Shown one piece after another: positions 3,458 through 36,484 of a stretch of 38,090 nucleotides of DNA. The stretch spans positions 1 to 38,090 of the forward strand of contig CAMIZL010000021.1 in NCBI GenBank assembly GCA_946403295.1, written 5' to 3'. Each line of letters opens with the position of its first letter. Within the stretch, counting starts at the first letter, position 1. The notes under the pieces were generated by a model. That model was not told where the DNA came from. It ran no database searches and saw nothing but the letters and a program-made list of their open reading frames with translations. The position numbers were made by a program, and so were the translations under genes. The stretch comes from an uncultured Clostridia bacterium. GTDB lineage: Bacteria > Bacillota > Clostridia > Lachnospirales > Lachnospiraceae.

Positions 3458-3515
3458 CTCTCCTCTTTTGAAGCGGTATGCTTCGTTTCCTTTTCCGATA
3501 CCCGAAAGCATCGGT
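3458..3515 (-). repeat. Two-hairpin leader element, htpG copy (degenerate)
   Basis: Read on the minus strand the order is hairpin A (CCGAT/ATCGG, 3495-3514), the link AAAAGGAAAC, hairpin B (GAAGC/GCTTC, 3470-3484), then AAAAGAGGAG, which contains the htpG ribosome binding site. The order and spacing match the copies upstream of xpt and of the capD-type gene. The element lies downstream of the predicted -10, so it should be in the mRNA leader. Confidence 0.65.
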
Positions 3516-3530
3516 CTTCTTTCTTTCAAT

Positions 3531-3560
3531 ATCATATACCACGCCGGTCCCCGATGTCAA
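3531..3560 (-). promoter_or_regulatory. Sigma-A promoter of htpG
   Basis: On the minus strand TTGACA (plus 3555-3560) and TATGAT (plus 3531-3536) are separated by 18 bp. The predicted start of transcription is near 3524, giving a leader of about 75 nt. Confidence 0.75.
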
Positions 3561-3567
3561 TAAAAAA

Positions 3568-3594
3568 TTAGCACTCAAACAAAACGAGTGCTAA
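3568..3594. promoter_or_regulatory. CIRCE operator (HrcA binding site)
   Basis: Perfect inverted repeat TTAGCACTC-N9-GAGTGCTAA. This is the consensus HrcA operator of class I heat-shock genes. It sits 7 bp upstream of the htpG -35 box. Its right arm (3591-3593) also supplies the TAG stop codon of the DUF5721 gene upstream. Confidence 0.97.
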
Positions 3595-4037
3595 CAATTT
3601 TCCGTATCAAGCCCGAGGCCCTTAAGAAATTCATATGCTTCTTTATCCCAGTCTCTTTCAGGCTGTTTGTCGGGATCAAATCCCTTTTGGGCAAAGCCCG
3701 TAACAACCACGAGCCCGCTCTGGTCGAAACGAATGTTTATGATCTGCGTCCCGTTCGCGCCTTCTTTTTGAAGCACGATCTTCATCCTGACGGGAAGCCT
3801 TTTTCCCGATACCGTCCTGCGGACGCTTTCCTTGGCGGCAGTCCACATATGATATGTTCCGTCGCCCATGATCTCATTTTCATCGGAAGTGAAGAACGCT
3901 CTGTTTATGCGTCCCGAGATCCTGTGATCCATCGCCATGCCAACCTCGGCCTCGATGAACATGAAATTATCGAAAGCCTCTCCCGAAAGAAGAAGCTCCA
4001 TAAACTTCTTAATGTCATTCACCCGAAGTGCGGTCAT
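3591..4037 (-). CDS. DUF5721 family protein
   Basis: Protein of 148 residues with no signal peptide or membrane segment. The opening (NDIKKFMELLLSGEAFDNFMFIEAEV) and overall length resemble DUF5721, an uncharacterised family common in Lachnospiraceae. The function is unknown. The ATG at 4037 has the RBS GAAAGGAT. It starts 4 bp after the stop of the GH13-like gene, so it is probably the last gene of a ykpA / GH13-like / DUF5721 operon. Its stop codon lies inside the CIRCE operator of htpG. Confidence 0.75.
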   Translation of the reverse strand: MTALRVNDIKKFMELLLSGEAFDNFMFIEAEVGMAMDHRISGRINRAFFTSDENEIMGDGTYHMWTAAKESVRRTVSGKRLPVRMKIVLQKEGANGTQIINIRFDQSGLVVVTGFAQKGFDPDKQPERDWDKEAYEFLKGLGLDTENC

Positions 4038-4041
4038 ATAT

Positions 4042-5973
4042 CTATCCTTTCAAGACGTCATTATTCTTTTTTTCGGACTCTGTTTTTTTCCTTGTTCTGA
4101 CCGGTCCGCCTGCACCTTTTGTTTCCTTCTTCCTGTTCGGCGCTTCCTTTGTCCCGGGATCGTCCACTCTGAACAATACGGCGGTCCTTCCTTCAAGCAC
4201 GCACGTTCTTTCCCCGACCGATACTGCCGTATCATCCGAAGCGAGGATTCTCGTATAAGGATTGTCATCTATCGTCGGAAGGTCGAATTCATGCGCTTCC
4301 CAGTGCATGTTTATGAGAAGGAAAAATCCTTCATCGGCATTTCTCTTATCCTTCATCGCGTACTTTCCGTTAAGAAGGATTCCGAGCGTCCTGCTGTAAT
4401 AACCGTAATCGGGCATCCATGCCTTGATCCCGTGGAACGAGATATCGGGAAGACCCTGTCCGGCATAATCCTGTCCCTTAAGGACCGATTTGCTCGCAAA
4501 AACGGGATGCATGCGCTTGAGCTCGATAAGCTTCTTTACGAACGACGTGATCTCGCGGGCCTGGGCATTCTTTTCCCAGACCACATAACCCGTCTCGTTG
4601 TCGCAGCAGTAATAATTATTGTTTCCTCCGGCCGTATTAAGAAATTCGTCGCCGGAATTTATCATGGGCACACCTTCCGAAAGGAACAAGAGCATCAATG
4701 CGTTCTTGCACATCTTCTGCCGTAGGAGCCTTATGTTCTTCTTGCCCGTAGGGCCTTCAACGCCGCAATTCCAGCTGTAGTTGATCTCTCTTCCGTCACG
4801 GTTTCTCTCGCCGTTCTCTTCATTGTGTCTTACGTCGTAGCAGAAGACGTCGTACAAAGTGAATCCGTCATGATCCGCAAAATAATTGATCCTTGCGGTG
4901 TCGCCGCCGTTATCCTTAAACGTGCCCGCAAAGTATTTTATCTGGTCCTCGTCGCCCTTTATGAGCCTGCGGCAATTGACCATAAATGCATCGTTGCAGC
5001 TTCCGAGCCTTTCTTTGCGGCATTCGTCGCCTATGCCCGTGCTGTCCCAGCCGTGTGCTATAAGCGTCATGCCCGTAAGATACGGATCGACCGCGAGCAT
5101 CGGGATGCAGGGGTTGTCGCCCATCAGCCTGAAACCGTCGATTCCGTATTCGTTCCTCCAGTACATGAGGACCTGTGTTACAAATGTATATGCCACATCG
5201 GCAGGGAAACACATCTCCATCATAACGTCGATGCCTGCTCTGTGAAATGTCCTGATGAGTGACTTAAATTCTTCATCCGCCTTTAAGGGCTGCGATGCAT
5301 ATGAAGCCTTGGGCGCAAAGAAAGCGGCAGGCGCGGAATATCCCCAGACGTTGAGTTTTTTCGGCTCGTCCGCAACCATGACGGCAGGGTTTAGCACAGC
5401 CTCAAAAGGGGCCGCCTGTTTTCTTTCCGGAGGCCTTGTAAAATCCCTGTCACGAACAATCTCATCGAAATCGTAGCAAGGCATAAGAAGGACAGTCGTA
5501 ATGCCGAGTCCCTTGAGATATCTGACTTTTGACGCCACTCCCGCAAATGTTCCGGGAGCCGGAACACCCGAAGACGGATGGGCCGTAAAGCATCTTACAT
5601 GAAGTTTGTATATTACGGATGAACGAAGGTCGTGCGGTTTATATGCGGTTTTGCTATCGGCCTCTTTTCCCCCCGGAACGGGAAGGATCGCGTCGGGCAC
5701 CTCGCTTCTCACTCCGAAACCGTCTGTTTCGCACAGAAGCTTTGCAAAGGGATCGGAGAAGGCGCCGTTTTCATTTTCGAAATGATAGACAAGCGGAACC
5801 GATTCGTCTTTGAAGGAGCAGACAAACCAGCCCGGATCCGTCTGCGATTCCTTCATCACTATGGACTTTTTATTGCATATGAGCTTAACGCTCTTTGATC
5901 CGGGAGCGAATACGGAAGCTTTGATCTGTCCGTTTCCCCTGGTCAGTCCGGCCGACCTTGTGTCAATCATCAT
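4042..5973 (-). CDS. GH13 (GlgX/isoamylase-like) protein with degenerate active site
   Basis: A 643-residue protein with the layout of glycogen debranching enzymes: an N-terminal CBM48-like beta domain (about 10-95), a (beta/alpha)8 barrel (about 115-500), a C-terminal beta domain, and a basic tail (about 607-643). The GH13 signature regions are eroded. In region I (MMEMCFPA) the Asn-His pair is replaced by P257-A258. In region II (GFRLM) the nucleophile Asp is Met284. In region III (LIAHGWD) the acid/base Glu is His307. Region IV keeps H368 and D369 (ADHDG). Two of the three catalytic carboxylates are therefore gone, so I infer a carbohydrate-binding or scaffold protein, not an active debrancher. 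Similar degenerate paralogues occur in Lachnospiraceae as far as I recall. The ATG at 5973 has a GGAG RBS, 18 bp after ykpA. Confidence 0.85.
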   Translation of the reverse strand: MMIDTRSAGLTRGNGQIKASVFAPGSKSVKLICNKKSIVMKESQTDPGWFVCSFKDESVPLVYHFENENGAFSDPFAKLLCETDGFGVRSEVPDAILPVPGGKEADSKTAYKPHDLRSSVIYKLHVRCFTAHPSSGVPAPGTFAGVASKVRYLKGLGITTVLLMPCYDFDEIVRDRDFTRPPERKQAAPFEAVLNPAVMVADEPKKLNVWGYSAPAAFFAPKASYASQPLKADEEFKSLIRTFHRAGIDVMMEMCFPADVAYTFVTQVLMYWRNEYGIDGFRLMGDNPCIPMLAVDPYLTGMTLIAHGWDSTGIGDECRKERLGSCNDAFMVNCRRLIKGDEDQIKYFAGTFKDNGGDTARINYFADHDGFTLYDVFCYDVRHNEENGERNRDGREINYSWNCGVEGPTGKKNIRLLRQKMCKNALMLLFLSEGVPMINSGDEFLNTAGGNNNYYCCDNETGYVVWEKNAQAREITSFVKKLIELKRMHPVFASKSVLKGQDYAGQGLPDISFHGIKAWMPDYGYYSRTLGILLNGKYAMKDKRNADEGFFLLINMHWEAHEFDLPTIDDNPYTRILASDDTAVSVGERTCVLEGRTAVLFRVDDPGTKEAPNRKKETKGAGGPVRTRKKTESEKKNNDVLKG

Positions 5974-5991
5974 AATAAACTCCGTGAATTA

Positions 5992-7626
5992 TCAGTCTTC
6001 CTCTTCTTCGTTAACCGCAAGTACGGTTCTCTTACGTGCCATCTCGTCGCTTGCAAGATAATCGTCATAGGTCGAAACCTTATCGATGAGCTTGCCGTCG
6101 GGGAGGATCTCCATGATCCTGTTTGCCGTGGTCTGTATAAATTGATGATCGAGCGCCGTAAAGAGCTCTACACCGGGGAATTTGATGAGCGCGTTGTTAA
6201 GAGCCGTGATCGATTCCATGTCAAGGTGGTTGGTGGGTTCATCCATGACGAGCACGTTCGAACCGAGGATCATCATCTTGGAAAGCATAACCCTGACGCG
6301 CTCTCCTCCCGAAAGGACATTGACCTTCTTGATGCCGTCTTCGCCCTTAAAGAGCATACGTCCGAGGAATCCCCTTACATATTGCTGGTCATCAACGGGT
6401 GAGAAAGGCATAAGGTGATCGACGATCGTCTCGCTTCCCTTGAATTCTTCCGTATTATCCTTGGCGAAATAGCTTCTTTGTGTGGTAACGCCCCACTTGA
6501 ACGAACCCTCGTCGGGTTCCATCTCCTCGTTGAGGATCTTAAAGAGGACGGTTGCCGCCTGGTTGTTTCCGCCTACAAAAGCGATCTTGTCGTCATGTCC
6601 GACAACAAAGCTTATATTATCAAGAACCTTAACACCGTCGATCGTCTTTGAGAGGTTGCTGACCGTAAGCACCTCATTACCGATCGCACGGTTGGGTCTG
6701 AAGTCGATGTAAGGATATACCCTGCTCGAAGGCTTGATATCGTCAAGCTCGATCTTTTCGAGCGCACGCTTACGTGATGTTGCCTGCTTGGATTTCGAAG
6801 CGTTTGCGGAGAATCTCTGAATGAATTCCTGTAATTCCTTGATCTTCTCCTCTTTCTTCTTGTTGGCTTCCTTCATCTGTCTGATCATGAGCTGACTCGA
6901 TTCGTACCAGAAATCGTAGTTTCCGGCATAGAGCTGGATCTTTTGGTAATCGATGTCCGCGATCTGGGTGCAGACCTTGTTAAGGAAATATCTGTCGTGG
7001 GATACGACTATGACAGTATTGTCAAAATTGATAAGGAATTCGTTGAGCCAGCTGATAGCCTCGAGATCAAGGTGGTTCGTAGGCTCGTCGAGCAACAGGA
7101 TATCGGGATTTCCAAAAAGCGCCTGCGCAAGGAGCACCTTGACCTTAAGAGAGTCCTTAAGCTGCGACATCATCATGTGATGATATTCGGTGTCAACTCC
7201 GAGACCGTTAAGAAGCGTGGCAGCTTCCGACTCTGCTTCCCATCCGTTCATGTTTGCGAATTCAGCCTCGAGTTCGCTCGCCCTTATTCCGTCCTCATCA
7301 GAGAAATCCTCTTTTGCATAGATGGCGTCTTTCTCTTTCATTATCTCGTAAAGGCGCTTGTTGCCGAGGATAACCGTGTCGGTTACGTCATATGCGTCAT
7401 ATTTGAAGTGATCCTGCTCGAGGAACGAAAGACGCTGACCGGGTGTGATGACAACTTCGCCCTTCGAAGGCTCAAGCTGTCCCGAAAGGATCTTGAGGAA
7501 TGTGGATTTTCCCGCACCGTTGGCGCCGATAAGTCCATAGCAGTTTCCTTCCGTAAATTTAATGTTAACGTCCTCAAAGAGTGCTCTCTTTCCAAGACGC
7601 AGTGTCACATTACATGCTGCGATCAT
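5992..7626 (-). CDS. ykpA: ABC-F ATPase, YkpA type
   Basis: Soluble ribosome-associated ABC-F protein of 544 residues with two nucleotide-binding domains and no membrane domain, closely matching B. subtilis YkpA. The first domain has Walker A GANGAGKST (34-42) and LLLDEPTNHLD. Its signature is non-canonical (LKDSLKVKVLLAQ), as in YkpA itself. The linker is the charged KKKEEKIKELQEF helix with the SANASKSKQATSRK motif. The second domain has the degenerate Walker A GGNNQAATV, a good signature LSGGERVRVML, and MDEPTNHLD. ABC-F proteins act at the ribosomal E site; the specific role of YkpA is not settled. The ATG at 7626 has the RBS AAGGAG. It heads the operon with the GH13-like and DUF5721 genes. 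Confidence 0.95.
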   Translation of the reverse strand: MIAACNVTLRLGKRALFEDVNIKFTEGNCYGLIGANGAGKSTFLKILSGQLEPSKGEVVITPGQRLSFLEQDHFKYDAYDVTDTVILGNKRLYEIMKEKDAIYAKEDFSDEDGIRASELEAEFANMNGWEAESEAATLLNGLGVDTEYHHMMMSQLKDSLKVKVLLAQALFGNPDILLLDEPTNHLDLEAISWLNEFLINFDNTVIVVSHDRYFLNKVCTQIADIDYQKIQLYAGNYDFWYESSQLMIRQMKEANKKKEEKIKELQEFIQRFSANASKSKQATSRKRALEKIELDDIKPSSRVYPYIDFRPNRAIGNEVLTVSNLSKTIDGVKVLDNISFVVGHDDKIAFVGGNNQAATVLFKILNEEMEPDEGSFKWGVTTQRSYFAKDNTEEFKGSETIVDHLMPFSPVDDQQYVRGFLGRMLFKGEDGIKKVNVLSGGERVRVMLSKMMILGSNVLVMDEPTNHLDMESITALNNALIKFPGVELFTALDHQFIQTTANRIMEILPDGKLIDKVSTYDDYLASDEMARKRTVLAVNEEEED

Positions 7627-7706
7627 TTATAACTCCTTCTTTTGGCCCGCGCGGATCTTACCGGCCCGGCCATTTCATGTATACTTGACTGCGTTTTAAC
7701 GCAATA

Positions 7707-7751
7707 ACAGTGTGCGTCTCTCTGTCTACGAGCGCACACTGTTTTATTTTA
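7707..7751. terminator. Strong hairpin with plus-strand T-run, ykpA leader region
   Basis: ACAGTGTGCG (7707-7716) pairs with CGCACACTGT (7733-7742), and TTTTATTTT follows on the plus strand. No plus-strand gene precedes it. On minus it falls between the SH3 gene and ykpA, where the downstream side is only weakly T-rich. It may terminate the SH3 transcript or act as a leader hairpin of ykpA. The rest of 7627-7843 holds a small palindrome (GCGTTTTAACGC at 7691-7702) and no gene. Confidence 0.5.
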
Positions 7752-7843
7752 CAATAATATTCACATATTTGCAAGATTGCGGGATATTCACATCGTCGGT
7801 CCCACAGCCGGGAGCCGTCACCCCCGTACGCACGGAAAGTTCA

Positions 7844-8728
7844 TCACTCGACGGTACAGAAGCTTGCGGAAACATAAGCCTTAGGCGCATCGTTATAAAC
7901 GATAGCCACCCATCCGTGAACCTCGGGAGCTGTCGGATCTACCGAATAAACGGCTCCTTCCGCTGCGATCGCGAGCTTATTGGATTCCATGTTTGCATCG
8001 TCACGGATAAAGACTGCTCTGTCGATCCTTACCCTTCTCGCACTGACACCCTGTATCTGCTCATCCGCGGCTCTTCCGGTCATAAGATAGGTATTTCGTA
8101 TATAACCCGCGACGTCACCGCATATGATCTTTGAAAAGTCCTCTCCTGCCTCCGTCACTATGCCGTAAGACCCCTTTAAAAGGACTCCGACCTTATCGGA
8201 TGAACTGCTCGCCTCTTTGCGGACATTGACGGAAGTCTCTATGTTCTGGAGTACGAAATGCGTTTCGGTTCCGTCAAATTTCAGATCCTCTTTCGGAACG
8301 CTGTTCCCGATAGGAAGTCCGTCGTCCGTGAATGCAGCCGTCTGCGCCGATGTGCCCGCGTCAGGTTCTTCCTGTTTTACGGTATCGTTATCGTCCTGAT
8401 TTTGATCCGTTCCCGTCTTAACCGCATCAGTCTTTTTATCTGTCTGTGCGTCATCTTTGTCCGCCGCGTCTTTCTTTTCACCGGAGGCAGCGGTATTTAA
8501 TGATTCATCGACTCCCGTGGACCGATCGTCCGATCCTTTTTGTTTCCCGTCGGTTCCGGAAGACGGAGACTTTTCGCTTTCTTCCTTCACCACCGCCTGT
8601 TTTCCGTCGTCACCCTTGTTCTTTTTGTTGTAATCGCTTATCAGGGCGATCACGCCGAATACAAGAGCCAGCACCGCGGAAGTGATAAATATCACCGTTA
8701 CGATCTTAAAAAGTCTGTTTATATTCAT
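7844..8728 (-). CDS. Membrane-anchored protein with two bacterial SH3-like domains
   Basis: A 294-residue protein. One N-terminal membrane segment (about 8-32) is followed by a long acidic low-complexity linker rich in Asp, Lys, Ser and Thr (about 36-135). Two SH3b-like domains follow, the first at about 157-217 (VNVRKEASSSSDKVGVLLKG is typical) and a more diverged one at about 230-294. The topology suggests a short cytosolic N-terminus with SH3 domains outside the cell, where such domains usually bind peptidoglycan. The start overlaps the stop of the RsbW-like gene by 4 bp (ATGA), so the two are translationally coupled. The RBS GGGAG lies inside the upstream gene. Confidence 0.85.
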   Translation of the reverse strand: MNINRLFKIVTVIFITSAVLALVFGVIALISDYNKKNKGDDGKQAVVKEESEKSPSSGTDGKQKGSDDRSTGVDESLNTAASGEKKDAADKDDAQTDKKTDAVKTGTDQNQDDNDTVKQEEPDAGTSAQTAAFTDDGLPIGNSVPKEDLKFDGTETHFVLQNIETSVNVRKEASSSSDKVGVLLKGSYGIVTEAGEDFSKIICGDVAGYIRNTYLMTGRAADEQIQGVSARRVRIDRAVFIRDDANMESNKLAIAAEGAVYSVDPTAPEVHGWVAIVYNDAPKAYVSASFCTVE

Positions 8729-9156
8729 ACTTTTTCTCCCGATTCGCTTTTTTTCATGATCGTAAGAACATTTCTTCCGCCGATACGTTCATAATCGACC
8801 TTATCCATGCTCATTTTGACCATGTAGATCCCGAGTCCGCCGATCTTCCTGTCCTGCGCGGGAAGCGTAAGGTCAGGGTCATTGCGCAATAGCGGGTTGT
8901 ATTCCACCCCTTCGTCCTCGAAAATTATTTTTGCTCCGCCCTTTTTATCGGTATCGACAGTGATATCGGCATACTTATGTGCGTCAGGCAGATCTTCATA
9001 TGCATATGATGCTATGTTTACGAAAATCTCTTCAACAGCAATATCCATCGTCGGTAACAATTCCTTGTCCCATCCGACCTTCACGAGAGAACCGTTGACA
9101 AACTCGATCACTCTCGTAAGTTCCGATACATTTGCATCAAATCTTGCCTTTACCAT
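8725..9156 (-). CDS. RsbW/SpoIIAB-like anti-sigma factor ATPase (HATPase_c_2)
   Basis: A small GHKL ATPase of 143 residues. The N box is AVEEIFVNIASYAY (E43, N47), the G1 box is FEDEGVEYNP (D81), and the G2 box is GGLGIYMVK (from G106). Proteins of this size and fold are serine kinases that bind a sigma factor or an antagonist. No sigma factor, STAS-domain antagonist or PP2C phosphatase lies nearby. An earlier ATG at 9168 gives 147 residues, but the only good RBS (GGGAGG) overlaps those extra codons and sits 4 bp before the ATG at 9156, so I chose 9156. It is coupled to the downstream SH3 gene by a 4-bp overlap. Confidence 0.88.
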   Translation of the reverse strand: MVKARFDANVSELTRVIEFVNGSLVKVGWDKELLPTMDIAVEEIFVNIASYAYEDLPDAHKYADITVDTDKKGGAKIIFEDEGVEYNPLLRNDPDLTLPAQDRKIGGLGIYMVKMSMDKVDYERIGGRNVLTIMKKSESGEKV

Positions 9157-9260
9157 AAAACCTCCCATTATCTCAGAAATATAGTGTACCCTTATCGATC
9201 CTTACGGATCGCTCGATTTCCCGGAAATATGCGTATATCCTTTCGGGAACCGACAGACAG

Positions 9261-9467: not shown

Positions 9468-9568
9468 GGCACGCCCCTCATTTAATACCCAAGCCCCGAC
9501 CAGGTCGGTATCATCTGTTGCTTAGTCCGAATATCAAAGAACAATCATCAATTACTAACAGTCAAATA

Positions 9569-12208
9569 TTATTTTGTTGCTTTTTTCTTTTCTTTCTTGG
9601 CGGTGATCTTCGGCTCGCCGGCCGGTTTCTCCGCCCCGGTCTTCTTTACGGCTTTTTTAACGGCGGGCTTTTCAGTCTTTACCGAGGTTTCTTTCACAGC
9701 GGTTTTTTCCGTCTTTTCAGCCTTTTCAACCTTCTCTGCCTTCTTTACCGTTTTCTTTACCGCAGGCTTTTCAGCTTTTTCGGCCTTCTTTACCGTTTTC
9801 TTTACGGCGGGCTTTTCAGCCTTTACCGAGGTTTCTTTCACAGCGGTTTTTTCCGTCTTTTCAGCCTTTTCAACCTTCTCTGCCTTCTTTACCGTTTTCT
9901 TTACCGCAGGCTTTTCAGCTTTTTCGGCCTTCTTTACCGTTTTCTTTACGGCGGGCTTTTCAGCTTTCTCCGTTTTCTTCACCGTTTTCTTTGCCGCGGG
10001 TTCTTCCGGCGTACACGTGAACACCGTCATCCCCAGCGGAGGAAGCTTGATCACTATGGAATCCTGCCATCCGTCCTTTTCAACCGCTACCGACGTCTTT
10101 TTACGGGGATTTACATGGCCCGAACCGCCGTATTTGACGGCATCGCTCGAAAGGATCTCTTTATATGTTCCGGGGAACGGAACCGCCTGTCTGTAGTCGT
10201 TATATTCCACGGGCGTGAAATTGAACGCAAACAGGAGCGTTTCACCCGGATTACGTGTCTTTCTGATAAAGCTTACTATACTGTGATCCGCGTCGAGGCA
10301 TCCGAGCCACTTGAATCCGTCGGGATCGCAGTCGAGCTCCGTAAATGCCGGCATGTCGCGGTACATCCTGTTAAGTTCGGCAACATAGTCCGAAAGCTTT
10401 GCATGAAGCGGATCGTCAAGAAGATCCCAGTCAAGGCTTCTGTTCTCCGCCCATTCTCTGACCTGTCCGAATTCCTGACCCATGAAAAGGAGTTTCTTTC
10501 CGGGATGACCCATCATGAATCCGTATGCCGCACGAAGATTCGCAAATTTGTCTTCAATCTCTCCGGGCATCTTATTTATCATCGAACCCTTGCCGTGAAC
10601 AACCTCATCGTGCGAAAGCACGAGGACGAAATCTTCGCTGTAGGCGTACATCATACTGAACGTAAGCTGTCCGTGACATCCTTTTCTGAAAAGGGGATCC
10701 TGTCTCATATACGATGTGAAATCGTTCATCCATCCCATGTTCCATTTGAGATCGAATCCGAGTCCGTCTTCCTCGACAGGCTTTGTGACATTCGGCCAAG
10801 CCGTCGATTCCTCCGCGATGATGACCGCTCCGTTTTTCTTCTTGTGGAACACCGAATTGAGATGTTTCAACAACTCGATCGCTTCAAGGTTCTCTTTTCC
10901 GCCGTACCTGTTGGGAAGCCACTGTCCTTCCTTGCGTCCGTAGTCAAGATAAAGCATTGAAGCCACGGCATCCATTCTTATGCCGTCAGCGTGATATTTC
11001 TCGGTCCAGAAAAGAACGCTGGCGATCAGGAAGTTCGATACTTCGGGACGTCCGAAATCAAATATCAGAGTGCCCCAGTCCGGATGCTCGCCGAGCCTTC
11101 TGTCGGGATGCTCATATAAACATGTTCCGTCAAATCCGGCAAGCGCGAAAGAATCTCTCGGGAAATGGGCGGGTACCCAGTCAAGGATGACACCTATCCC
11201 TTCGCTGTGCATATGATCGACGAACGCCATAAAATCCTGCGGTGTTCCGTACCTCGATGTGGGTGCGAAATAACCGGTCACCTGATAACCCCACGAACCG
11301 TCATACGGATGCTCCATAACGGGCAACAATTCAATGTGGGTATATCCCATTTTCTTGACGTATTTTGAAAGAAGCTTCGCGGTCTCGCCGTACGAATAGA
11401 AATCGTTGTCGCCGTCGCCCTTTCTCATCCACGATCCGAGATGAACTTCGTAGATCGACATCGGGGTCTTTGTGATATCGAGCTTCTTTCTCGCATCCAT
11501 ATATTCCCCGTCTTTCCAATCGTAATCAAGGGTCGTAACGATGGATGCGTTTCCGGGTCTCATCTCCGCCGCATTCGCATAAGGATCGGCCTTCAGATAT
11601 GTCAGGCCGCTTTGAGCCTTTATCTCAAATTTATAGATCTCGCCCTTTCCGAGCCCGGGAATAAAGAGTTCAAATATTCCGGCGGCACGAAGCTTTCTCA
11701 TGGGATGACGTCTGCCGTCCCACGTGTTGAAATCTCCGACAACGCTCACACGCTGGGCGTTCGGTGCCCATACCGCGAAATATGTTCCCTTAACCTTATT
11801 GACGGTGATCACGTGCGCACCGAGCTTCTCGTAGATCTCGTAATGAACGCCGCGGATAAATCTGTCTTCATCTTCTTCGGAGATCTGCTTGGCGAAGCTG
11901 TAGGGATCATAAATAAGAGTCTTCGAATCGTCCCTGTACGTAACGTCAAGCTTATAATTTCCGACCTTGCCTTTTTCGATAAGAACCGAAAAATTACCCG
12001 AATCATCAACGCTGCTCATGGGATAAACATTCTTACCGATAACAACGCTGACTTCCCGTGCAGTCGGAAGGAACGCATTTATAAGCGTTCCTTCTTCCGT
12101 ATCATGCGGTCCGAGCCACGAGTGAGGATCGTCATGCTCGGAATATATCAGCGCCTCCATGGCCCCCCAGTTCATGTACTTGTACAGAACATCATCCTCT
12201 TCGATCAT
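9569..12208 (-). CDS. glgB: 1,4-alpha-glucan branching enzyme GlgB with lysine-rich C-terminal tail
   Basis: Transfers alpha-1,4-glucan segments to alpha-1,6 positions during glycogen synthesis. The 879-residue protein has an N-terminal beta domain, a CBM48 domain (about 120-225, VVGDFNTWDG), a GH13 barrel and a C-terminal beta domain ending near 735. The active site is intact: region I ILDWVPAH (D343, H348), nucleophile D413 (IRMDAV), acid/base E466 (IAEEST), and D534 (LSHDEVVHGKGS). Residues about 738-879 form a histone-H1-like Lys/Ala/Glu/Pro tail built from a 48-residue tandem repeat. Such a tail is not usual for GlgB and makes the protein about 140 residues longer than the core. The ATG at 12208 has the RBS GGAGG. 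It lies downstream of the DUF624 gene with an 80-bp gap. Confidence 0.97.
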   Translation of the reverse strand: MIEEDDVLYKYMNWGAMEALIYSEHDDPHSWLGPHDTEEGTLINAFLPTAREVSVVIGKNVYPMSSVDDSGNFSVLIEKGKVGNYKLDVTYRDDSKTLIYDPYSFAKQISEEDEDRFIRGVHYEIYEKLGAHVITVNKVKGTYFAVWAPNAQRVSVVGDFNTWDGRRHPMRKLRAAGIFELFIPGLGKGEIYKFEIKAQSGLTYLKADPYANAAEMRPGNASIVTTLDYDWKDGEYMDARKKLDITKTPMSIYEVHLGSWMRKGDGDNDFYSYGETAKLLSKYVKKMGYTHIELLPVMEHPYDGSWGYQVTGYFAPTSRYGTPQDFMAFVDHMHSEGIGVILDWVPAHFPRDSFALAGFDGTCLYEHPDRRLGEHPDWGTLIFDFGRPEVSNFLIASVLFWTEKYHADGIRMDAVASMLYLDYGRKEGQWLPNRYGGKENLEAIELLKHLNSVFHKKKNGAVIIAEESTAWPNVTKPVEEDGLGFDLKWNMGWMNDFTSYMRQDPLFRKGCHGQLTFSMMYAYSEDFVLVLSHDEVVHGKGSMINKMPGEIEDKFANLRAAYGFMMGHPGKKLLFMGQEFGQVREWAENRSLDWDLLDDPLHAKLSDYVAELNRMYRDMPAFTELDCDPDGFKWLGCLDADHSIVSFIRKTRNPGETLLFAFNFTPVEYNDYRQAVPFPGTYKEILSSDAVKYGGSGHVNPRKKTSVAVEKDGWQDSIVIKLPPLGMTVFTCTPEEPAAKKTVKKTEKAEKPAVKKTVKKAEKAEKPAVKKTVKKAEKVEKAEKTEKTAVKETSVKAEKPAVKKTVKKAEKAEKPAVKKTVKKAEKVEKAEKTEKTAVKETSVKTEKPAVKKAVKKTGAEKPAGEPKITAKKEKKKATK
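9650..9975 (-). repeat. 144-bp in-frame tandem repeat coding for the GlgB tail
   Basis: ACCGAGGTTTCTTTCACAGC begins at 9681 and recurs at 9825, a period of 144 bp (48 codons). There are about 2.3 near-identical copies. Inside each unit is a smaller 15-16-codon repeat (KPAVKKTVKKAEKAE-like). The near identity at DNA level points to recent duplication or gene conversion. Confidence 0.9.
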
Positions 12209-15326: not shown

Positions 15327-15336
15327 TATAATTTTC

Positions 15337-15399
15337 CTCCTCTTTGGAAGCACTTTAGTGCTTCCGTTTCCTCGTACCACATATCACTGAGGTAACAGG
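15337..15399 (-). repeat. Two-hairpin leader element, xpt proximal copy
   Basis: Minus-strand order: hairpin A (TACC/GGTA, 15375-15394), the link CGAGGAAAC, hairpin B (GGAAGCAC/GTGCTTCC with loop TAAA, 15346-15365), then AAAGAGGAGG, which is the xpt ribosome binding site. Confidence 0.75.
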
Positions 15400-15402
15400 T
15401 TT

Positions 15403-15463
15403 ATCTTTGGAAGCGCGCAAAGCGCTTCCGTTTCCTCGCCACATATGCCACCGGCATAACAGG
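15403..15463 (-). repeat. Two-hairpin leader element, xpt distal copy
   Basis: Minus-strand order: hairpin A (ATGCC/GGCAT near 15445-15457, or alternatively GCC/GGC), GGCGAGGAAAC, hairpin B (GGAAGCGC/GCGCTTCC, 15409-15429), AAAGAT. A shared CCTGTTA opens this copy and the proximal one. Further upstream, 15470-15489 has a truncated GGAAG hairpin followed by AAAT that looks like a third, decayed hairpin B. Confidence 0.75.
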
Positions 15464-15705
15464 CTTTATTTGGAAGGGGCGTAGCCCACTTATACATAGT
15501 TAAGTTTATCACATTCATGTTCTCTTTACAAGAATTGATTATGTGAGAAGAGCCCATGTCTCATACACGAAAAGCGTAAAAAGTTCCCCGTCGAAATGCA
15601 CAAAAACGCGGGTGTCGTTTCGTTAAATACGCCGATAGACGAGCGCCTTTTTCGGTGATATCATCCTGATCAGGATCACCGCTCTTTCCGAAAGAAAGAG
15701 GTCTT
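15464..15705. other. Intergenic region between divergent xpt and DUF5688 genes
   Basis: No gene is seen. A weak minus-strand promoter for xpt may be formed by TTGTAA (plus strand complement near 15525-15530) and GATAAA about 15 bp downstream. The plus side leads into the DUF5688 gene, with the imperfect palindrome TGATCAGGATCA at 15667-15678 and an RBS-like GAAAGAGG before 15706. Confidence 0.4.
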
Positions 15706-29772: not shown

Positions 29773-29821
29773 ATGAGTATTTCTTCTTCCTTAACTTCTC
29801 TTTTAGTTAATCAACTTGAAG

Positions 29822-29944: not shown

Positions 29945-29992
29945 CAACTCTATGTAATTATATATAAATAAGAAGTGAGGAGGAGCAAAGCT

Positions 29993-32722
29993 ATGGCTGA
30001 CAATGCTAATAACAGCAAGGCCGGAAAAGAACTTGCCAAAACCTATAACCCTTCCGAAATCGAAGACCGTATATACAAGAAGTGGCTCGAGAAGAAGTAC
30101 TTCCATGCCGAAGTCGATGAGACAAAGAAACCCTTTACTATCGTGATCCCGCCCCCCAACATCACGGGACAGCTTCACATGGGTCATGCTCTCGACAACA
30201 CCATGCAGGATATCCTCATCAGAACAAAGAGGATGCAGGGTTATAATGCGCTCTGGCAGCCCGGAACAGACCACGCTTCCATCGCTACGGAGGCAAGGAT
30301 CGTTGAGACCTTAAAGAAGGAAGGCACCTCTAAGGAAGAGCTCGGACGTGAGAAATTCCTTGAGCGCGCCTGGGAATGGAAGAAAGAGTACGGCGGAAGG
30401 ATCGTTGAGCAGCTCAAGAAGCTCGGTTCGTCATGTGACTGGGACCGTGAGCGTTTCACCATGGACGAAGGCTGCAACAAGGCCGTTAACAAGGTATTCA
30501 CTTCCCTTTATGAAAAGGGTCTCATCTACAAAGGCTCCAGGATCGTTAACTGGTGCCCTGTTTGTAACACATCCATCTCGGATGCCGAGGTTGAATACGA
30601 GGAGCAGGCAGGTCATTTCTGGCACATCAAGTACCCTCTCATAGAGGATGACGGAAGCATTTCAAAAGAGAAATTCCTCATCTTCGCCACAACACGTCCC
30701 GAGACAATGCTCGGTGATACCGCCGTGGCTGTTAATCCCGAAGATGAAAGATACAAGGATCTTGTTGGAAAGACACTCTGGCTTCCTTTCGTAGACAGAA
30801 AGATCCCGATCATCGCCGACAGCTACGTTGACATGACATTCGGAACAGGTGTTGTAAAGATCACACCCGCTCACGACCCTAACGACTTTGAAGTAGGAAA
30901 GCGCCACAATCTTCCCGAGATCAATATCCTTAACGATGATGCCACCATCAACGAAAACGGCGGCAAGTTTAACGGTCTTGACCGTTACGAAGCACGTAAG
31001 CAGATCGTTAAGGAACTTGACGAGATGGGACTTCTCGTTAAGATCGAGGATCACGCTCACAACGTAGGCACCTGCTACCGCTGCCATACAACCGTTGAGC
31101 CCATGATCAAGAAGCAGTGGTTCGTTAAGATGGACGAGCTTATCAAGCCCGCTGTAGAGTGCATCAAGAACGGCGACATCAAGCTCATCCCCGAGCGTAT
31201 GGATAAAGCTTACTACAACTGGACCGACAACATCCGCGACTGGTGTATCTCCCGTCAGCTCTGGTGGGGTCATCAGATCCCCGCGTACTACTGCGCCGAC
31301 TGCGGTCATATCACCGTTTCGGGCGACAAGGTCGACAAATGTGAGAAGTGCGGAAGCACACGCATCGAACGCGATCCCGACACACTCGATACATGGTTTT
31401 CGTCGGCTCTCTGGCCTTTCTCGACACTCGGATGGCCCGAGGACACAAAGGAACTTAAGTACTTCTACCCTACCGATGTACTTGTAACCGGCTACGATAT
31501 CATCTTCTTCTGGGTTATCAGAATGATCTTCTCCGGATATGAGCAGATGCATGAGCGTCCTTTCAAGTACGTACTCTTCCACGGTCTCGTTCGTGACGAT
31601 CAGGGTCGCAAGATGAGCAAGTCGCTCGGTAACGGTATCGATCCTCTTGAGATCATCGAGAAGTATGGCGCCGACGCGCTCCGCTTCACACTCATCACCG
31701 GTAATGCACCCGGTAACGACATGCGTTTCTACATGTCACGTGTTGAGGCATCGCGTAACTTTGCAAACAAGGTTTGGAACGCTTCCCGTTTCATCATGAT
31801 GAACATGGACCAGTGCAGGGAAGCCGGCATAAGCATTGATTTCGAAGCGCCCATCGGGAGCGTTCGCGACATTCTCGAAGACGCCGACCGCTGGATCCTT
31901 TCGAAGGCTGCCACGGTTGTAACGGAAGTTACCGATTCTATTGAGAAGTTCGAGCTCGGTATCGCAGCCCAGAAGATCTACGACTTCATCTGGGAAGAAC
32001 TTTGCGACTGGTACATTGAGATGGTTAAAGCCCGTCTCTACGGCAGCGACGTAACCTCAAAGAAAGCAGCCATGTGGACACTTTCACATGTACTCGTTGA
32101 CTCACTGAAGCTTCTTCATCCCTACATGCCTTTCATCACGGAAGAAATCTTCTGCACATTGAAAGAGGAGCAGGGAACACTTGACAAGAACGAATCGATC
32201 ATGATCTCTTCATGGCCCGAAGGAAGTCGCGAAACTCTCTTCCCTTCGGAAAGAGAATCGGTTGAGCTCATCAAGGAAGCCGTTAAAGCCATCCGTGCTC
32301 TCAGAACGGACATGAACGTTCCGCTCTCACGCAAAGCTGCTGTTCACGTTGTTTCCGAAGACGCTTCCATATTGAAGATCTTCGACAACTCAAAGAACTT
32401 CTTTGCTTCGCTTTGCGGAGCTTCGGAAGTATTTACGGCAGCCGACAAAGCAGGTATCAGGGATGACGCCGTTTCATCGGTTATCCCCGGTGCGACGATC
32501 TACATTCCTCTTGAGGACCTTGTGGATCTCGAGAAAGAGAAGGAGCGTCTTGTCAAAGAAAAGGCACGTCTTGAAGGAGAACTCAAACGTGTCAACGGCA
32601 TGCTCGCGAACCCCAATTTCGTAAACAAAGCACCCGCAGCCAAGCTTGAGGAAGAAAAGGCAAAGCTCGAGAAGTACACCGATATGTACGAAAAAGTCAC
32701 CACAAGACTTGCACAGCTCTGA
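29993..32722 (+). CDS. valS: Valyl-tRNA synthetase
   Basis: Charges tRNA-Val; class I synthetase of 909 residues. The HIGH motif is HMGHA (from H62, preceded by PPPNITGQL) and KMSKS is at 540-544. The zinc-like cysteines (CADCGH, CEKCGS), the editing domain and the C-terminal coiled-coil arm (from about 840, [19 protein letters not shown]) are present. A GTG at 29975 is in frame, but it is part of the GAGGAGG ribosome binding site, so ATG at 29993 is the start. It is a single-gene transcript with its own promoter and a strong terminator. Confidence 0.98.
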
Positions 32723-32740
32723 TAACAGGATAAAAAGCAA

Positions 32741-32775
32741 AGAGGATGAAGGCCTGTGCCGACATCCTCTTTTTT
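32741..32775 (+). terminator. Terminator of valS
   Basis: AGAGGATG (32741-32748) pairs with CATCCTCT (32763-32770), followed by a run of T to 32775. Confidence 0.9.
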
Positions 32776-32790
32776 GTGCGATAAACGAAT

Positions 32791-33025
32791 GCCATCTGTT
32801 GCAAGCTTGCTTGCAATTGTATCTGCTATCACGGTTTTCGGAAGAAAGTTTACTTTCTTATCGAAAATCGTGATAGCAGATACAAAGTGAGGCAAAGCCT
32901 CACGTACAGATGGCTGAGTGAACGGTCATCGAGCGGACTAGTACGCGAGATGTCCGTCGCATCGAGTAGGAGTCAGCCTACTCGATTATTAATGTTACGA
33001 TCGATCATTGTTGATCCGTTTTTCG
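32791..33025 (+). ncRNA. Candidate structured non-coding RNA or palindromic element
   Basis: No ORF lies here. An outer stem GCCATCTGT (32791-32799) with ACAGATGGC (32906-32914) encloses three helices: TGCAAG/CTTGCA (32800-32815); a 21-bp stem with one G-U pair (32820-32840 with 32862-32882) continuing to AGAAAG/CTTTCT; and GTGAGGC/GCCTCAC (32887-32903). Two more hairpins follow: CGGAC/GTCCG (32934-32956) and ATCGAGTAGG/CCTACTCGAT (32961-32986). A weak hairpin GATCA/TGATC (33003-33016) followed by TTTTT could end a plus-strand RNA. The orientation is not settled; on minus it would be the 3' end of the Panacea gene transcript. I do not recognise a known RNA class. The remaining bases to 33048 hold nothing more that I can see. 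Confidence 0.5.
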
Positions 33026-33048
33026 CGCTCATCGTTATTGAGACAGTT

Positions 33049-33864
33049 TTATTTCGTCGCGGTTGATTTTTTTATGAATGCGATCCTCTTCTGCAGGTAC
33101 GTCCCAATGTCTTTAAGTTTTCTCACACCGGCCTGATCGAACACTTCCGCATACGCTTTTCTCAATGTTTCCGCTTTGACGATCCTCCTCTTTCGTGCCC
33201 CGGGTGCACCGCAAAGTCTGTAATTTTCCGCTTTCATGAGCGCCGAAAGGGCGGTCGGACCGTACCACATAAGGACATCATTAACCTTCGCGATAAGTTC
33301 TTTCTTTTCCGGGGTGAGCAAATCGTCACTCATTAAGGGCATATTGACGATTCTCGCATAATCGTCTTCAACCGCTTTATACGGCATTCCTGTTTTACCG
33401 GGCTGAAATTCGTCTTCAAAGAGAGGTTTTCCCAGCAACCTGATCGCAAATATCTGCGACCACAACAACACCGATTCAAGCCTTAAGAGGCCCACGGCAT
33501 GTGCTTCTCCCGATTCCTGTCTTCCCGCCTCGGCCAGCTTCTCATCCATACACGCGCATGCCCATGCGGCACACTCGAGTATCGGTGACCCCTTAAACAT
33601 ATTGTCGACGGCAGCAAGGCTTTTATTAAATGCCACGGCTGTGATATTATTTCTTCCGCTTATAAGTATTTCCCTGTAATATCCGGGATCGTCAAGAATT
33701 CTTTTTAGTTTTTTTGAATATTCGTTATTGGGAATGTTTTCGCAATTTAAATATTGCATGACTGTTGTAACTCCCCAGCCTAGAAGCTTGGCGAGAGGCT
33801 TTTTTCCGATCCTGTAACGATCGAGAATTTCAAGAACGTCTTCCTTTGTAAGAGGTTTTCCCAT
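33049..33864 (-). CDS. HTH protein with Panacea (DUF4065/SocA-like) domain
   Basis: A 271-residue cytoplasmic protein. The N-terminus (about 7-56) looks like a helix-turn-helix (LAKLLGWGVTTVMQYLNC). Residues about 125-245 resemble the Panacea domain (LLRLESVLLWSQIFAIRLLGKPLFEDEFQ, YKAVEDDYARI, then LTPEKKELIAKVNDVLMWYGPTALSALM). Panacea domains neutralise unrelated toxins in toxin-antitoxin systems. No toxin ORF sits beside it: the neighbours are a structured non-coding stretch and a membrane protein. It may be an orphan antitoxin or a regulator. The ATG at 33864 has the RBS GAGGAGG. Confidence 0.72.
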   Translation of the reverse strand: MGKPLTKEDVLEILDRYRIGKKPLAKLLGWGVTTVMQYLNCENIPNNEYSKKLKRILDDPGYYREILISGRNNITAVAFNKSLAAVDNMFKGSPILECAAWACACMDEKLAEAGRQESGEAHAVGLLRLESVLLWSQIFAIRLLGKPLFEDEFQPGKTGMPYKAVEDDYARIVNMPLMSDDLLTPEKKELIAKVNDVLMWYGPTALSALMKAENYRLCGAPGARKRRIVKAETLRKAYAEVFDQAGVRKLKDIGTYLQKRIAFIKKSTATK

Positions 33865-33970
33865 AAGTCCTCCTCTTCATACGGTGCACAAAGCCCCTTT
33901 TAAACGATAACCGGATTGAAGATATGTCTCTCTTTTTCTCCCGATTCTTTACCCCTTATCCCGCCGTCTC

Positions 33971-34465
33971 TTAAAAGAGGGCGGGTATTCCGTACGTGAT
34001 CAGACACATGATGGTTGTAGCAATGAGAAGTCCGATGATCACCGCAGGAAAAGCCTTTTTAAACTTGACTCCGAGAAGTGCGGCTATAAAACATCCCGTC
34101 CATGCGCCCGTTCCCGGGAGCGGGATCCCGACAAAAAGTACTATCCCCCAGAATTCATAACGCGCGATCTTCTCACTCTTGCCCATGGCCTTCTTTTCGA
34201 GTCTTTCCGCAAAGCCTTTGAGGATGCGGGTCGTCTTCAGCCAATCCATGATCTTCGTGATGAACAGGAGGATAAAAGGAACCGGTATGATATTTCCTGC
34301 AAGGCAGATAAGGATCGCTTTTACGATATTCATGCCGAAAAGCGGTGCAAGGATAAGACCTCCGCGCAGTTCGACTATCGGAAGCATAGACACGAAGAAA
34401 ATGATAAGTTCGTGAGGAAGACCCTCAAATGTTGCCGCAAACCATGTTGCTATGCTTTCTGCCAC
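33971..34465 (-). CDS. Small multi-drug export family protein (COG2426)
   Basis: A 164-residue integral membrane protein with about four to five hydrophobic segments. The pattern LPIVELRGGLILAPLFGM, NIIPVPFILLF, and GIPLPGTGAWTGCFIAALLG matches the Sm_multidrug_ex family, related to DedA-like proteins; the real substrate is unknown. The start is GTG at 34465, supported by AAGGGGA six bases upstream. It begins 19 bp after the capD-type gene and is likely in the same operon. Confidence 0.9.
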   Translation of the reverse strand: MAESIATWFAATFEGLPHELIIFFVSMLPIVELRGGLILAPLFGMNIVKAILICLAGNIIPVPFILLFITKIMDWLKTTRILKGFAERLEKKAMGKSEKIARYEFWGIVLFVGIPLPGTGAWTGCFIAALLGVKFKKAFPAVIIGLLIATTIMCLITYGIPALF

Positions 34466-34484
34466 TTTGATTCCCCTTTATCTT

Positions 34485-36350
34485 TCAGTTCTTTGCCGGC
34501 TTATATGTCGGAACAAGCTCCATAAGCTTCTCCCTGATGTCATCAGGCTCTTCCTTGACATAATCATAGAAATCGTCGATCCTAGCAAGGAAGTCATCGT
34601 AATCCATCTTGATGGGCTTTCCGATATGTATGAGACTGTTCGCCGTATTTTGAAGTCCTTCCTCATCCATGAGGACTTCTTCGTATAGTTTTTCACCGGG
34701 TCTGAGGCCCGTGAATTTAATGTCTATATCCTGATAGGGAACATAACCCGAAAGCCTGATAAGGTTTTCCGCAAGTGTGCGGATCTTTACGGGTTCTCCC
34801 ATATCAAGAACGAATATCTCGCCGCCTTTCGCAAATGCCCCTGCCTGAAGGACAAGCGAAACCGCTTCGGGAATGGTCATAAAGAATCTTACGATATCGG
34901 GATGGGTTACGGTCACGGGGCCGCCCTCTTCTATCTGTTTCTTAAAGAGAGGGATAACGCTGCCGTTGCTTCCGAGCACATTACCGAATCTGACGGCCAC
35001 AAATTCTGTCTTCGAGATCCTGTCATAGGTCTGGATGATCATCTCGCAAAGGCGCTTGGTGGCACCCATGACATTTGTGGGATTAACAGCCTTATCGGTC
35101 GAGATAAGTATAAAACGCTCAACGCCGTGCTTGTCAGCGGCACGAACCGTCTTAAGTGTTCCGTAAACATTATTCTTAACTGCTTCGTTGGGGCTGACTT
35201 CCATAAGAGGCACATGCTTATGCGCAGCCGCATGGAAAACGATCTCAGGCTTGTATTTTTCGAAGATCAGGTCGATCCTCTTTGTATTACGTACCGAAGC
35301 GATCATAACAACAAGGTTAAGATCGGGATAATCCCTGCGAAGTTCCTGTTCTATCTCATAAGCATTATTTTCATAAATATCAACTATAAGGAGCTGACCG
35401 ACGCCATGGCGTGCAAGCTGTCTGCAAAGCTCGCTTCCGATCGATCCGCCTCCGCCCGTGACGAGTACGGTCCTGCCCGTAACAAAGCCCATTACGGAAT
35501 CAATATCAACTTCGATCGAACCTCTTTCAAGGAGGTCTTCGATCTGAACGTTACGAAGCTGCGAAAGCTTGGTTCCGCCGTCAACAAGCTCCTTGATGCC
35601 GGGAAGGATCTTAAGGGCACACTTGGTACCCTTACAGATATTTACGATACGTCCCGTCTCTTTCTTACTTATGGACGGAATAGCGATTATGATCTCGCGA
35701 ATGTTATATTTCTCGGCATAGTAAGGAATGTCATCGGTATTTCCGACGACCTTAACGCCAAGGATGTAATTACCGATCTTTTCTTTTGAATCATCGATAA
35801 CGCAACAAACAGTCTTATGGGTATCATCGTTGTTCGTCATCTCTCTGATTATCATGCTTCCGGCTTCACCGGCACCTATGACCATAACATTGCTGCCGTA
35901 TTTGCGGTCAACATAGTTCCTGATCATCGTTCTGGCAACCCTGTAACCGAAGCGGCTCACCGCAAGTATTATCAGGAGCAGGCAAAAATAAAGGAAATAG
36001 AAGCTGCGGGGAAGTCTGTATTCGTCATAATGGAATACATAGATCAATATCACGTAGAATACAGTGGAAAGAACGCTTCCGAAAACGACTCTCTCAAGCT
36101 CCTTAATGCCCGCATATGTCCAAAGGCTGTTATACAGGCGGAGAACCCAAAGAATAATGATCGTTGCTGCCGTCGCAACCGGCAACAGATCAAGCACAAT
36201 GTTAAGGTAAGGTTCCTGAATCCTCTCGAACGAAAGATCAAACCTTAAAAGAAGCGCTCCTATAGAAGCAACCGCAACCGTAACGATATCAATTATGGCA
36301 AGTAGAAGTTTCCTCAATAACACCTTTCTTCCATGTTTAAACCAGTCCAT
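34485..36350 (-). CDS. capD: Membrane-bound UDP-sugar 4,6-dehydratase (CapD/WbpM/PglF type)
   Basis: A 621-residue polysaccharide biosynthesis enzyme. About four N-terminal transmembrane helices (about 12-36, 52-72, 90-107, 117-133) lead to a CoA-binding-like Rossmann domain (VIGAGEAG, 157-164). The SDR domain follows with TGGGGSIGSE (298-307) and the family catalytic segment STDKAVNPTNVMGATK (T418, D419, K420, M428, K432), where Met replaces the usual Tyr. Members convert UDP-GlcNAc to the 4-keto-6-deoxy sugar for capsule or glycan synthesis. The ATG at 36350 has an AGAGGAG RBS. The leader of about 145 nt holds two tandem copies of the two-hairpin element. No other capsule genes lie in the window. 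Confidence 0.95.
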   Translation of the reverse strand: MDWFKHGRKVLLRKLLLAIIDIVTVAVASIGALLLRFDLSFERIQEPYLNIVLDLLPVATAATIIILWVLRLYNSLWTYAGIKELERVVFGSVLSTVFYVILIYVFHYDEYRLPRSFYFLYFCLLLIILAVSRFGYRVARTMIRNYVDRKYGSNVMVIGAGEAGSMIIREMTNNDDTHKTVCCVIDDSKEKIGNYILGVKVVGNTDDIPYYAEKYNIREIIIAIPSISKKETGRIVNICKGTKCALKILPGIKELVDGGTKLSQLRNVQIEDLLERGSIEVDIDSVMGFVTGRTVLVTGGGGSIGSELCRQLARHGVGQLLIVDIYENNAYEIEQELRRDYPDLNLVVMIASVRNTKRIDLIFEKYKPEIVFHAAAHKHVPLMEVSPNEAVKNNVYGTLKTVRAADKHGVERFILISTDKAVNPTNVMGATKRLCEMIIQTYDRISKTEFVAVRFGNVLGSNGSVIPLFKKQIEEGGPVTVTHPDIVRFFMTIPEAVSLVLQAGAFAKGGEIFVLDMGEPVKIRTLAENLIRLSGYVPYQDIDIKFTGLRPGEKLYEEVLMDEEGLQNTANSLIHIGKPIKMDYDDFLARIDDFYDYVKEEPDDIREKLMELVPTYKPAKN

Positions 36351-36357
36351 ATTGTTC

Positions 36358-36420
36358 TCCTCTTTAGAAGCGGTTTTTAAACCGCTTCTGTTTCCTCGCC
36401 GGATACCCGACCGAAGTACC
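36358..36420 (-). repeat. Two-hairpin leader element, capD proximal copy
   Basis: Minus-strand order: hairpin A (GGTAC/GTATCC with a bulge, 36399-36420), GGCGAGGAAAC, hairpin B (AGAAGCGGTT/AACCGCTTCT, 36366-36389), then AAAGAGGAG, the ribosome binding site of the capD-type gene. Confidence 0.78.
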
Positions 36421-36484
36421 GGTTTTTCTTTAGAAGCGGCCTGAGCCGCTTCTGTTTCCTCGCCGGATACCCGACCGAAGTACC
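36421..36484 (-). repeat. Two-hairpin leader element, capD distal copy
   Basis: Hairpin A and the GGCGAGGAAAC link are identical to the proximal copy. Hairpin B is AGAAGCGGC/GCCGCTTCT (36432-36453), with a different apical stem but preserved pairing. The copy ends AAAGAAAAACC. Confidence 0.78.

Follow-up and report, generated by a model that had tools for sequence, protein, structure and literature searches.

A multi-copy, two-hairpin RNA element joined to ribosome-binding sites in one genus of rumen Lachnospiraceae

The stretch of DNA analysed here (the window) is a contig of 38,090 nucleotides (nt) from an uncultured Clostridia bacterium of the family Lachnospiraceae (assembly GCA_946403295.1, contig CAMIZL010000021.1). 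It carries five copies of a structured repeat ahead of three genes: htpG, xpt and a capD-type gene. A preliminary description of these five copies had read them as a cis-acting RNA regulator or protein-binding site. All five were recovered, the repeated element is real, and the family proved larger than described. Each unit consists of a hairpin A (optionally followed by a hairpin A2), a single-stranded CRAGGAAWC linker, a hairpin B and an AAWGA tail joined directly to the Shine-Dalgarno (SD) sequence. On the best reading, the element functions in cis as a leader RNA would and multiplies in the manner of a repeat family. The analysis supports the earlier reading, in which the terms regulator and protein-binding site stand for a putative role deduced from the sequence.

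Position, structure and the copies in the window

The window corresponds to contig G000:C21 of a genome of 2.39 Mb in 65 contigs, here called G000. Three covariance models were used, namely a core model, R1, of 16 own-genome copies (74 own-genome matches at an expectation value, E, of 1 or less), a full model, R2, of 36 own copies (86 matches at the same threshold), and R3, of 128 matches from several species. Counts made on alignment A5 lean towards the R2 structure, because R2 produced both R3 and A5.

The 86 own-genome copies fall into 65 arrays, 56 of which end 7-18 nt upstream of a start codon on the same strand, against 3 of 65 in an opposite-strand control, so that orientation is far from random. 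Gene starts were assigned by a mechanical rule, an open reading frame (ORF) of at least 60 amino acids (aa) with an SD sequence preferred, and the control followed a slightly different one (an SD of 3 or more within 25 nt). The same test, applied to the matches listed and fetched for two related genomes (51 of 62 in G023, 51 of 110 in G011), placed 39 of 50 arrays (control 4) and 25 of 27 arrays (control 1), respectively, before a start. Several of the 56 start-linked arrays are weak, for instance those at recA (E 0.42) and at S20 (E 0.042). The nine own arrays elsewhere comprise two cut at a contig end (C62, C58), the C5 array in a leader of rRNA type, an array standing 42 nt upstream of serA, and five weak or chance-looking matches. 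For 19 of the 56, the first nucleotide falls between -22 and +29 nt relative to the stop codon of the preceding ORF on the same strand, while 13 have a divergent neighbour gene; the element thus occupies both intercistronic (operon) and 5'-leader positions.

The downstream genes are diverse. Extraction gave 57 different proteins, and 19 of the 20 that were scanned received an NCBIfam name: DprA, an OmpR-type response regulator, GlgC/GlgD, Xpt, HtpG, TrpA, GlpK, PyrG, SmpB, FliG, FabD, phosphoglycerate dehydrogenase, HisS, L17, HisZ, ACP, L20, S20 and RecA. Their functions are unrelated and share no common pathway.

Hairpin B is backed by covariation beyond the controls. Its arms vary while pairing is kept (GGAAGC, AGATGC, GCAGTC, GCAATC, GCATGC, GGATAC), and in a MAFFT alignment of 36 own copies 93.5% of its cells pair, with both-side changes in seven of nine pairs. 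RNAalifold, run on the same alignment, predicts exactly hairpin B and nothing else, and the two hairpins taken jointly score 0.455, compared with 0.202 for shuffles and at most 0.158 for slid versions. Among 125 distinct copies from several species, 95.4% of hairpin B cells pair, a figure from a structure-fitted alignment that is biased towards the model, and corrected mutual information ranks seven column pairs of this hairpin above all others. The covariation that had been noticed in the window copies therefore persists in both larger sets. The two-hairpin structure proposed at the outset holds for hairpin B and is far less certain for hairpin A, which pairs in 67.5-69.5% of cells, has few supported pairs (15-49, 13-51) and differs in consensus by species; its support is weak.

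The most conserved letters lie in the linker and the 3' tail, where AGGAA, C66 and AAWGA are almost fixed (A63 0.99, A64 1.00, C66 0.97, A99 0.98, A100 0.99, G102 0.98, A103 0.98). Within hairpin B, two pairs hardly vary, A-U at columns 69/96 and C-G at columns 72/93. Together, these near-invariant pairs and single-stranded letters suggest sequence-specific recognition. On either side of hairpin B, the flanking letters might also form a stack of non-canonical pairs that includes tandem G-A. This resembles kink-turns and their tandem sheared G-A motifs: by eye, the linker end GGAAWC and the tail AAWGA could lengthen helix B through tandem pairs of G-A and A-G, although no canonical stem was found on the other side.

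In 84 of 117 gene-proximal copies from the three genomes, GGAG follows directly on the AAWGA tail. Under the bridging rule for CsrA, a dimer of this protein would connect the GGA of the linker (present in 109 of 128 aligned copies) with that of the SD sequence, loop out hairpin B and block ribosome binding, which would account for the SD lock. All 11 element-bearing genomes have the csrA gene, and so do 8 of the 13 that lack the element (Fisher P 0.03, uncorrected for kinship and completeness). Such an operator is nevertheless very improbable, given that A64, C66 and AAWGA are better conserved than GGA, that a G011 array before the MARFNRIMIKLSGEAL gene reads GATGA rather than GAGGA in all four copies, and that CsrA, being common in element-free species, does not discriminate between the two groups.

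All five window copies lie on the minus strand, in the sense orientation of their genes. Features are given with R3 scores; "pattern" marks recovery by a model-free core pattern (AGGAAWC, an arm with fixed A and C, a loop, the other arm, AAWGA).

3464..3521, minus: htpG copy, 28.1 bits, E 3.8e-4; hairpin A 3495-3514, linker AGGAAAC 3485-3491, hairpin B 3470-3484, AAAAGA 3464-3469, then the SD sequence
3448, minus: htpG start codon
1469..3448, minus: htpG, ORF downstream of copy 3464-3521; NCBIfam HtpG on the first 330 aa
15341..15403, minus: xpt gene-proximal copy, 49.9 bits, pattern; linker 15366-15372, hairpin B 15346-15365, AAAGA 15341-15345, then GGAGG
15404..15469, minus: xpt upstream tandem copy, 63.9 bits, pattern; linker 15430-15436, hairpin B 15409-15429, AAAGA 15404-15408
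15326, minus: xpt start codon
14739..15326, minus: xpt, ORF downstream of copies 15341-15469; NCBIfam xanthine phosphoribosyltransferase
36361..36426, minus: capD-like gene-proximal copy, 65.2 bits, pattern; linker 36390-36396, hairpin B 36366-36389, AAAGA 36361-36365
36427..36493, minus: capD-like upstream tandem copy, 63.0 bits, pattern; linker 36454-36460, hairpin B 36432-36453, AAAGA 36427-36431
36350, minus: start codon of the capD-like gene
34485..36350, minus: capD-type gene, ORF downstream of copies 36361-36493; the name is that of the preliminary description, and the first 330 aa match no NCBIfam family at E of 1e-35 or less

R3 scores the four xpt and capD copies at E of 3.7e-9 or less and the htpG copy weakly. 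The strong matches arise by construction, since those four, and not the htpG copy, sat in the model alignments. The core pattern finds exactly the same four in the window, with 0.00 expected from 100 dinucleotide shuffles. The htpG copy is the most diverged of the five, with a stem B of only 5 bp; the htpG orthologue in G011 has a similar copy (25.6 bits, E 0.0014). The layout of hairpin A, linker, hairpin B and AAAG, the sense orientation and the merging of gene-proximal copies with the SD sequence as AAAGAGGAG are all as first described. The unit boundaries had been set a few bases off, the model units being 58-67 nt long.

Other structures stand in leaders of the window. Between the htpG element and the upstream gene, at 3568-3594, lies a CIRCE-like inverted repeat, TTAGCACTC-N9-GAGTGCTAA; htpG has a repeat of similar kind ahead of it in the 12 genus members inspected. 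The minus-strand leaders upstream of 7626 (an ABC-F gene) and 27835 (metK) show a stable hairpin before the SD sequence that lacks the conserved linker, and these hairpins are possibly unrelated or decayed copies.

Distribution, age and turnover

The search of the genome and its relatives returned dozens of copies. Copy numbers are lower bounds, with at most 150 candidates per genome scored. At E of 0.001 or less, R3 finds at least 68 copies in G000. Of 23 further genomes from the same genus of rumen Lachnospiraceae, 10 have the element, at 4 to 107 or more copies each: at least 107 in G011, 55 in G023, 40 in G012, 19 in G005, 11 in G020, 10 each in G009 and G021, 9 in G013, 7 in G002 and 4 in G015. 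The other 13 of the 24 genus genomes gave no match at this threshold. The element-bearing relatives, where named, are metagenome-assembled genomes of rumen Lachnospiraceae. The end of contig C62 and the start of C58 in G000 break inside tandem arrays, and the true copy number is therefore probably higher.

Among the searched genomes, the element is restricted to this one genus. Across 248 genomes from the family's other genera R3 found no match, in a search with strict filters (23 copies rather than 68 in the own genome) that scored at most 20 candidates per genome. An exact core pattern run against 84,980 species genomes returned 32 stretches, 29 from Lachnospiraceae, one from an uncultured Clostridia and two others; the stretches in Cycloclasticus and Bacteroidia look like chance. 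A wider spread was considered and rejected: seven genomes outside the genus gave one weak R1 match each (E 0.0016-0.099), and the six inspected do not stand before an SD-led start. In a tree built on HtpG from 22 of the 24 genomes (G001 and G018, with split HtpG matches only, are omitted), 10 of the 11 element-bearing genomes fall in one supported clade, which also includes the element-free G004 and G016. G013 lies outside it, and its assembly has 6% contamination.

Copies are retained at orthologous genes. Nine orthologous genes are shared between the 57 element-bearing genes of G000 and the 41 of G023, compared with 1.1 expected (P 7e-7, 2100 genes assumed); three are common to G000 and G011, and three to G011 and G023. 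Several of these shared copies are identical across the core, and the hisS orthologues of G000 and G023 show a compensatory A-U/U-A change in stem B. At other genes occupancy differs. Among the htpG orthologues, R3 matches those of G000 and G011 and none of those of G002, G012, G015 and G023. For xpt, G000 alone has the element, the orthologues of G002, G012, G015 and G023 giving no R3 match at E of 1 or less. Other hairpins are seen by eye ahead of the SD sequence of xpt in G002, G012 and G023.

The unit is also modular. Some copies contain the extra hairpin A2, of the ATTCCCTTCGGGAAT type, between hairpin A and the linker, and it is present twice at own C1:39849. At orthologous sites, such as those before fliG and before the MKFYPELGEV gene (G000 versus G023), hairpin A or A2 has been exchanged in one piece, with hairpin B and the SD flank unchanged. 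Tandem arrays of two or more copies, up to four, at a spacing of 60-82 nt account for 15 of 66 arrays in the own genome, 1 of 50 in G023 and 15 of 27 in G011; one further own pair, at the C58 end, is spaced by 39 nt.

Turnover of this kind raises the question of a mobile palindromic repeat, similar to miniature inverted-repeat transposable elements (MITEs), BOX or REP, that is tolerated upstream of SD sequences or targets them, its RNA function being incidental. Copies are dispersed and modular, and their number varies between close relatives and from 0 to at least 107 within the genus. The tandem arrays, the block swapping of hairpin A and a with/without pair of leaders in G000 (below) point the same way. 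We consider this explanation quite improbable, because position and orientation are not free of start codons, as shown by the test above, because hairpin B carries compensatory changes among paralogues and at orthologous sites, and because old copies are retained at orthologous genes. Pneumococcal repeats, by comparison, are described as likelier to lie downstream of genes (PMC3049150). No terminal inverted repeats of the unit were seen by eye, and two exact patterns gave no match in viral contigs, where diverged copies could escape. The initial statement that the element is "not a simple repeat" thus stands in so far as it is a conserved RNA, and falls short in that it is also a multi-copy, modular and tandemly expanding repeat family.

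Leaders of rRNA type contain the element as well, between a strong TTGACA-TATAAT promoter and a closely following boxA-like ACCTTGATAATCG. In G000, one such leader has a unit (C5 end, L322) and one has none (C40 end, L299); G023 likewise has one with and one without. Both leaders of G015 contain one unit, those of G011 contain one and three tandem units, and both of G012 lack it. In G012 and G009, this boxA-like sequence leads into a 16S rRNA gene. For the element-bearing leaders, the 16S linkage is deduced from this shared leader sequence, because their contigs stop before the 16S gene. The two G000 leaders are otherwise closely alike just around the site and differ by one unit with GCAAAGAG at both ends, AAAGAG being also the unit's own 3' end. 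This difference fits gain or loss via insertion or recombination between repeats.

The rRNA-type leaders also bring up a transcription antitermination signal, related to boxB-boxA of rRNA operons and carried from there into mRNA leaders. The element stands directly upstream of the boxA-like sequence in G000, G011, G015 and G023, in up to three tandem units, and the 16S gene behind the same sequence in G012 and G009 is in keeping with such a role. This origin has very little probability, however, as it leaves the SD lock unexplained, some rRNA leaders of the same species lack the element, and the own genome has no LoaP above the cut-off. Moreover, the boxA-like region aligns with the element consensus no better than shuffles do (1849 of 2000 reach its score). 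A relationship between hairpin A and this boxA-like leader sequence was suggested by eye and rejected on the same ground, the alignment score being no better than that of shuffles. LoaP was also rejected as a partner: it exceeds the curated cut-off in 4 of the 24 genomes, the own not among them, and in one of the 11 that bear the element (G013).

Some copies precede other sequences. At L248, L238 and L251 of G023 and L068 of G012, the element is followed by GGAGCGAGAGCG and no start codon; the three G023 loci share a GGCTAGGCAG-type sequence where the start codon would stand. The sequence following the element at these four loci is perhaps another RNA, and the GGAGCGAGAGCG-type loci have no Rfam match.

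Possible modes of action

The SD lock, the near-invariant single-stranded letters and the covarying stem together indicate recognition of the RNA either at the ribosome-binding site or at the 5' end of the mRNA. We tentatively favour a lineage-specific, modular cis-acting leader RNA, to which a factor may bind so as to alter ribosome access or 5'-end stability. A trans-acting RNA-binding factor would recognise the core of CRAGGAAWC, hairpin B and AAWGA at the upstream edge of the ribosome-binding site; its binding would change ribosome access or mRNA 5'-end stability for many housekeeping genes, and tandem copies would add binding sites. Hairpin B is conserved in sequence and structure, and the element is placed in sense, locked to start codons, present in leaders of rRNA type, confined to one genus among the searched genomes and retained at orthologous genes; the factor, its action on RNA after transcription and its effect on ribosome access or stability are what we infer.

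Several observations weigh against this proposal. The wide copy-number gap among close relatives, at least 68 in G000 and at least 7 in G002, whose HtpG is 92% identical, also fits a spreading repeat. Copies in untranslated rRNA-type leaders do not suit a purely translational role, hairpin A need not be of one kind, and no partner protein was found among CsrA, which occurs in element-free genomes too, and LoaP. In folding predictions, the element raises SD accessibility only slightly (0.572, compared with 0.539 for shuffled elements, with a gain at 35 of 56 loci). Because this gain is so small, passive insulation of the ribosome-binding site is insufficient as an explanation. A bolder extension of the leader-RNA proposal, which is doubtful, is a genome-wide RNA operator through which a single factor or nuclease would jointly set ribosome synthesis and housekeeping translation, with tandem copy number as a tunable dose.

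The same arrangement could instead serve as a processing and stabiliser cassette, in which an endoribonuclease would cut the single-stranded CRAGGAAWC linker, leaving hairpin A to cap the 3' end of the upstream RNA and hairpin B to cap the new 5' end before the SD sequence or pre-rRNA. A conserved single-stranded linker flanked by two hairpins, of which A is exchangeable, matches this design, and so does the occupation of tight intercistronic gaps, leaders and rRNA-type leaders alike, which a translational model explains less well. RNase cleavage of repeat-derived hairpins has reported precedents in Correia/NEMIS and ERIC (PMC2229807, PMC10969869). The strict AAWGA and the two hardly varying pairs of hairpin B (A-U, C-G) exceed what a cut site needs, and we regard the cassette as unlikely.

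Relation to known elements and other features of the window

Comparison with Rfam 15 returned no family at threshold. In the window only tRNA reach the gathering threshold, eight element loci gave no match, and for one two-copy stretch the best sub-threshold hit scored 19.7 bits against a required 50; permissive thresholds also returned nothing for the element. The titles and abstract openings surveyed, with sparse coverage of subscription papers, contain no description of it. The element has no name in Rfam so far and resembles a conserved RNA signal for control or processing. Its clear covariance model and its copies, well over a hundred in number, make it a candidate for that database.

Among known repeats, the BOX elements of Streptococcus pneumoniae are described as small, multi-copy, modular intergenic repeats in which some modules are multiplied, with predicted RNA secondary structure and, in some cases, reported effects on the expression of neighbouring genes (PMC3049150). 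BOX and its companions are reported there to be MITE-like. The likeness lies in multi-copy modularity and predicted RNA structure; unlike BOX as presented there, the element is fused to start regions in sense (56 of 65 own arrays) and has a strongly covarying hairpin B. NEMIS/Correia and ERIC are described as miniature transposable elements transcribed into mRNAs as stem-loops, with reported post-transcriptional effects via RNase cleavage (PMC2229807, PMC10969869), whereas the present unit is SD-fixed and no terminal inverted repeats were seen in it. In the text available for the Bacillus cereus group, bcr10 and bcr18 have conserved secondary structure, are transcribed in 5' untranslated regions and are predicted to be functional RNAs (PMC3446304). 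They were compared by description rather than by sequence, and that text mentions no SD lock for them.

Cis-regulatory leaders and riboswitches in Rfam resemble the element as structured, covarying RNAs in a 5' leader beside the ribosome-binding site; a metabolite riboswitch differs in that the genes downstream of the element share no pathway. It is set apart from BOX-type repeats and riboswitches because it has neither orientation-free placement nor a shared pathway. Structured repeats that are both dispersed and expanding, and at the same time conserved and locked to start codons, are uncommon. If functional, one RNA module would wire dozens of unrelated genes and rRNA leaders to a single signal, and the family offers a direct test of how selfish-looking repeats turn into gene-control parts.

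Elsewhere in the window, both contig ends (1-55 and 38037-38090) lie inside tRNA genes, a typical assembly break. Repeats at 9620-10010 occupy the 3' part of a glgB-like gene, with a KAEKPAVKKTVKK-type tail, and a 24-nt inverted repeat at 32817-32885, 96% complementary and directly after valS, is probably a terminator.

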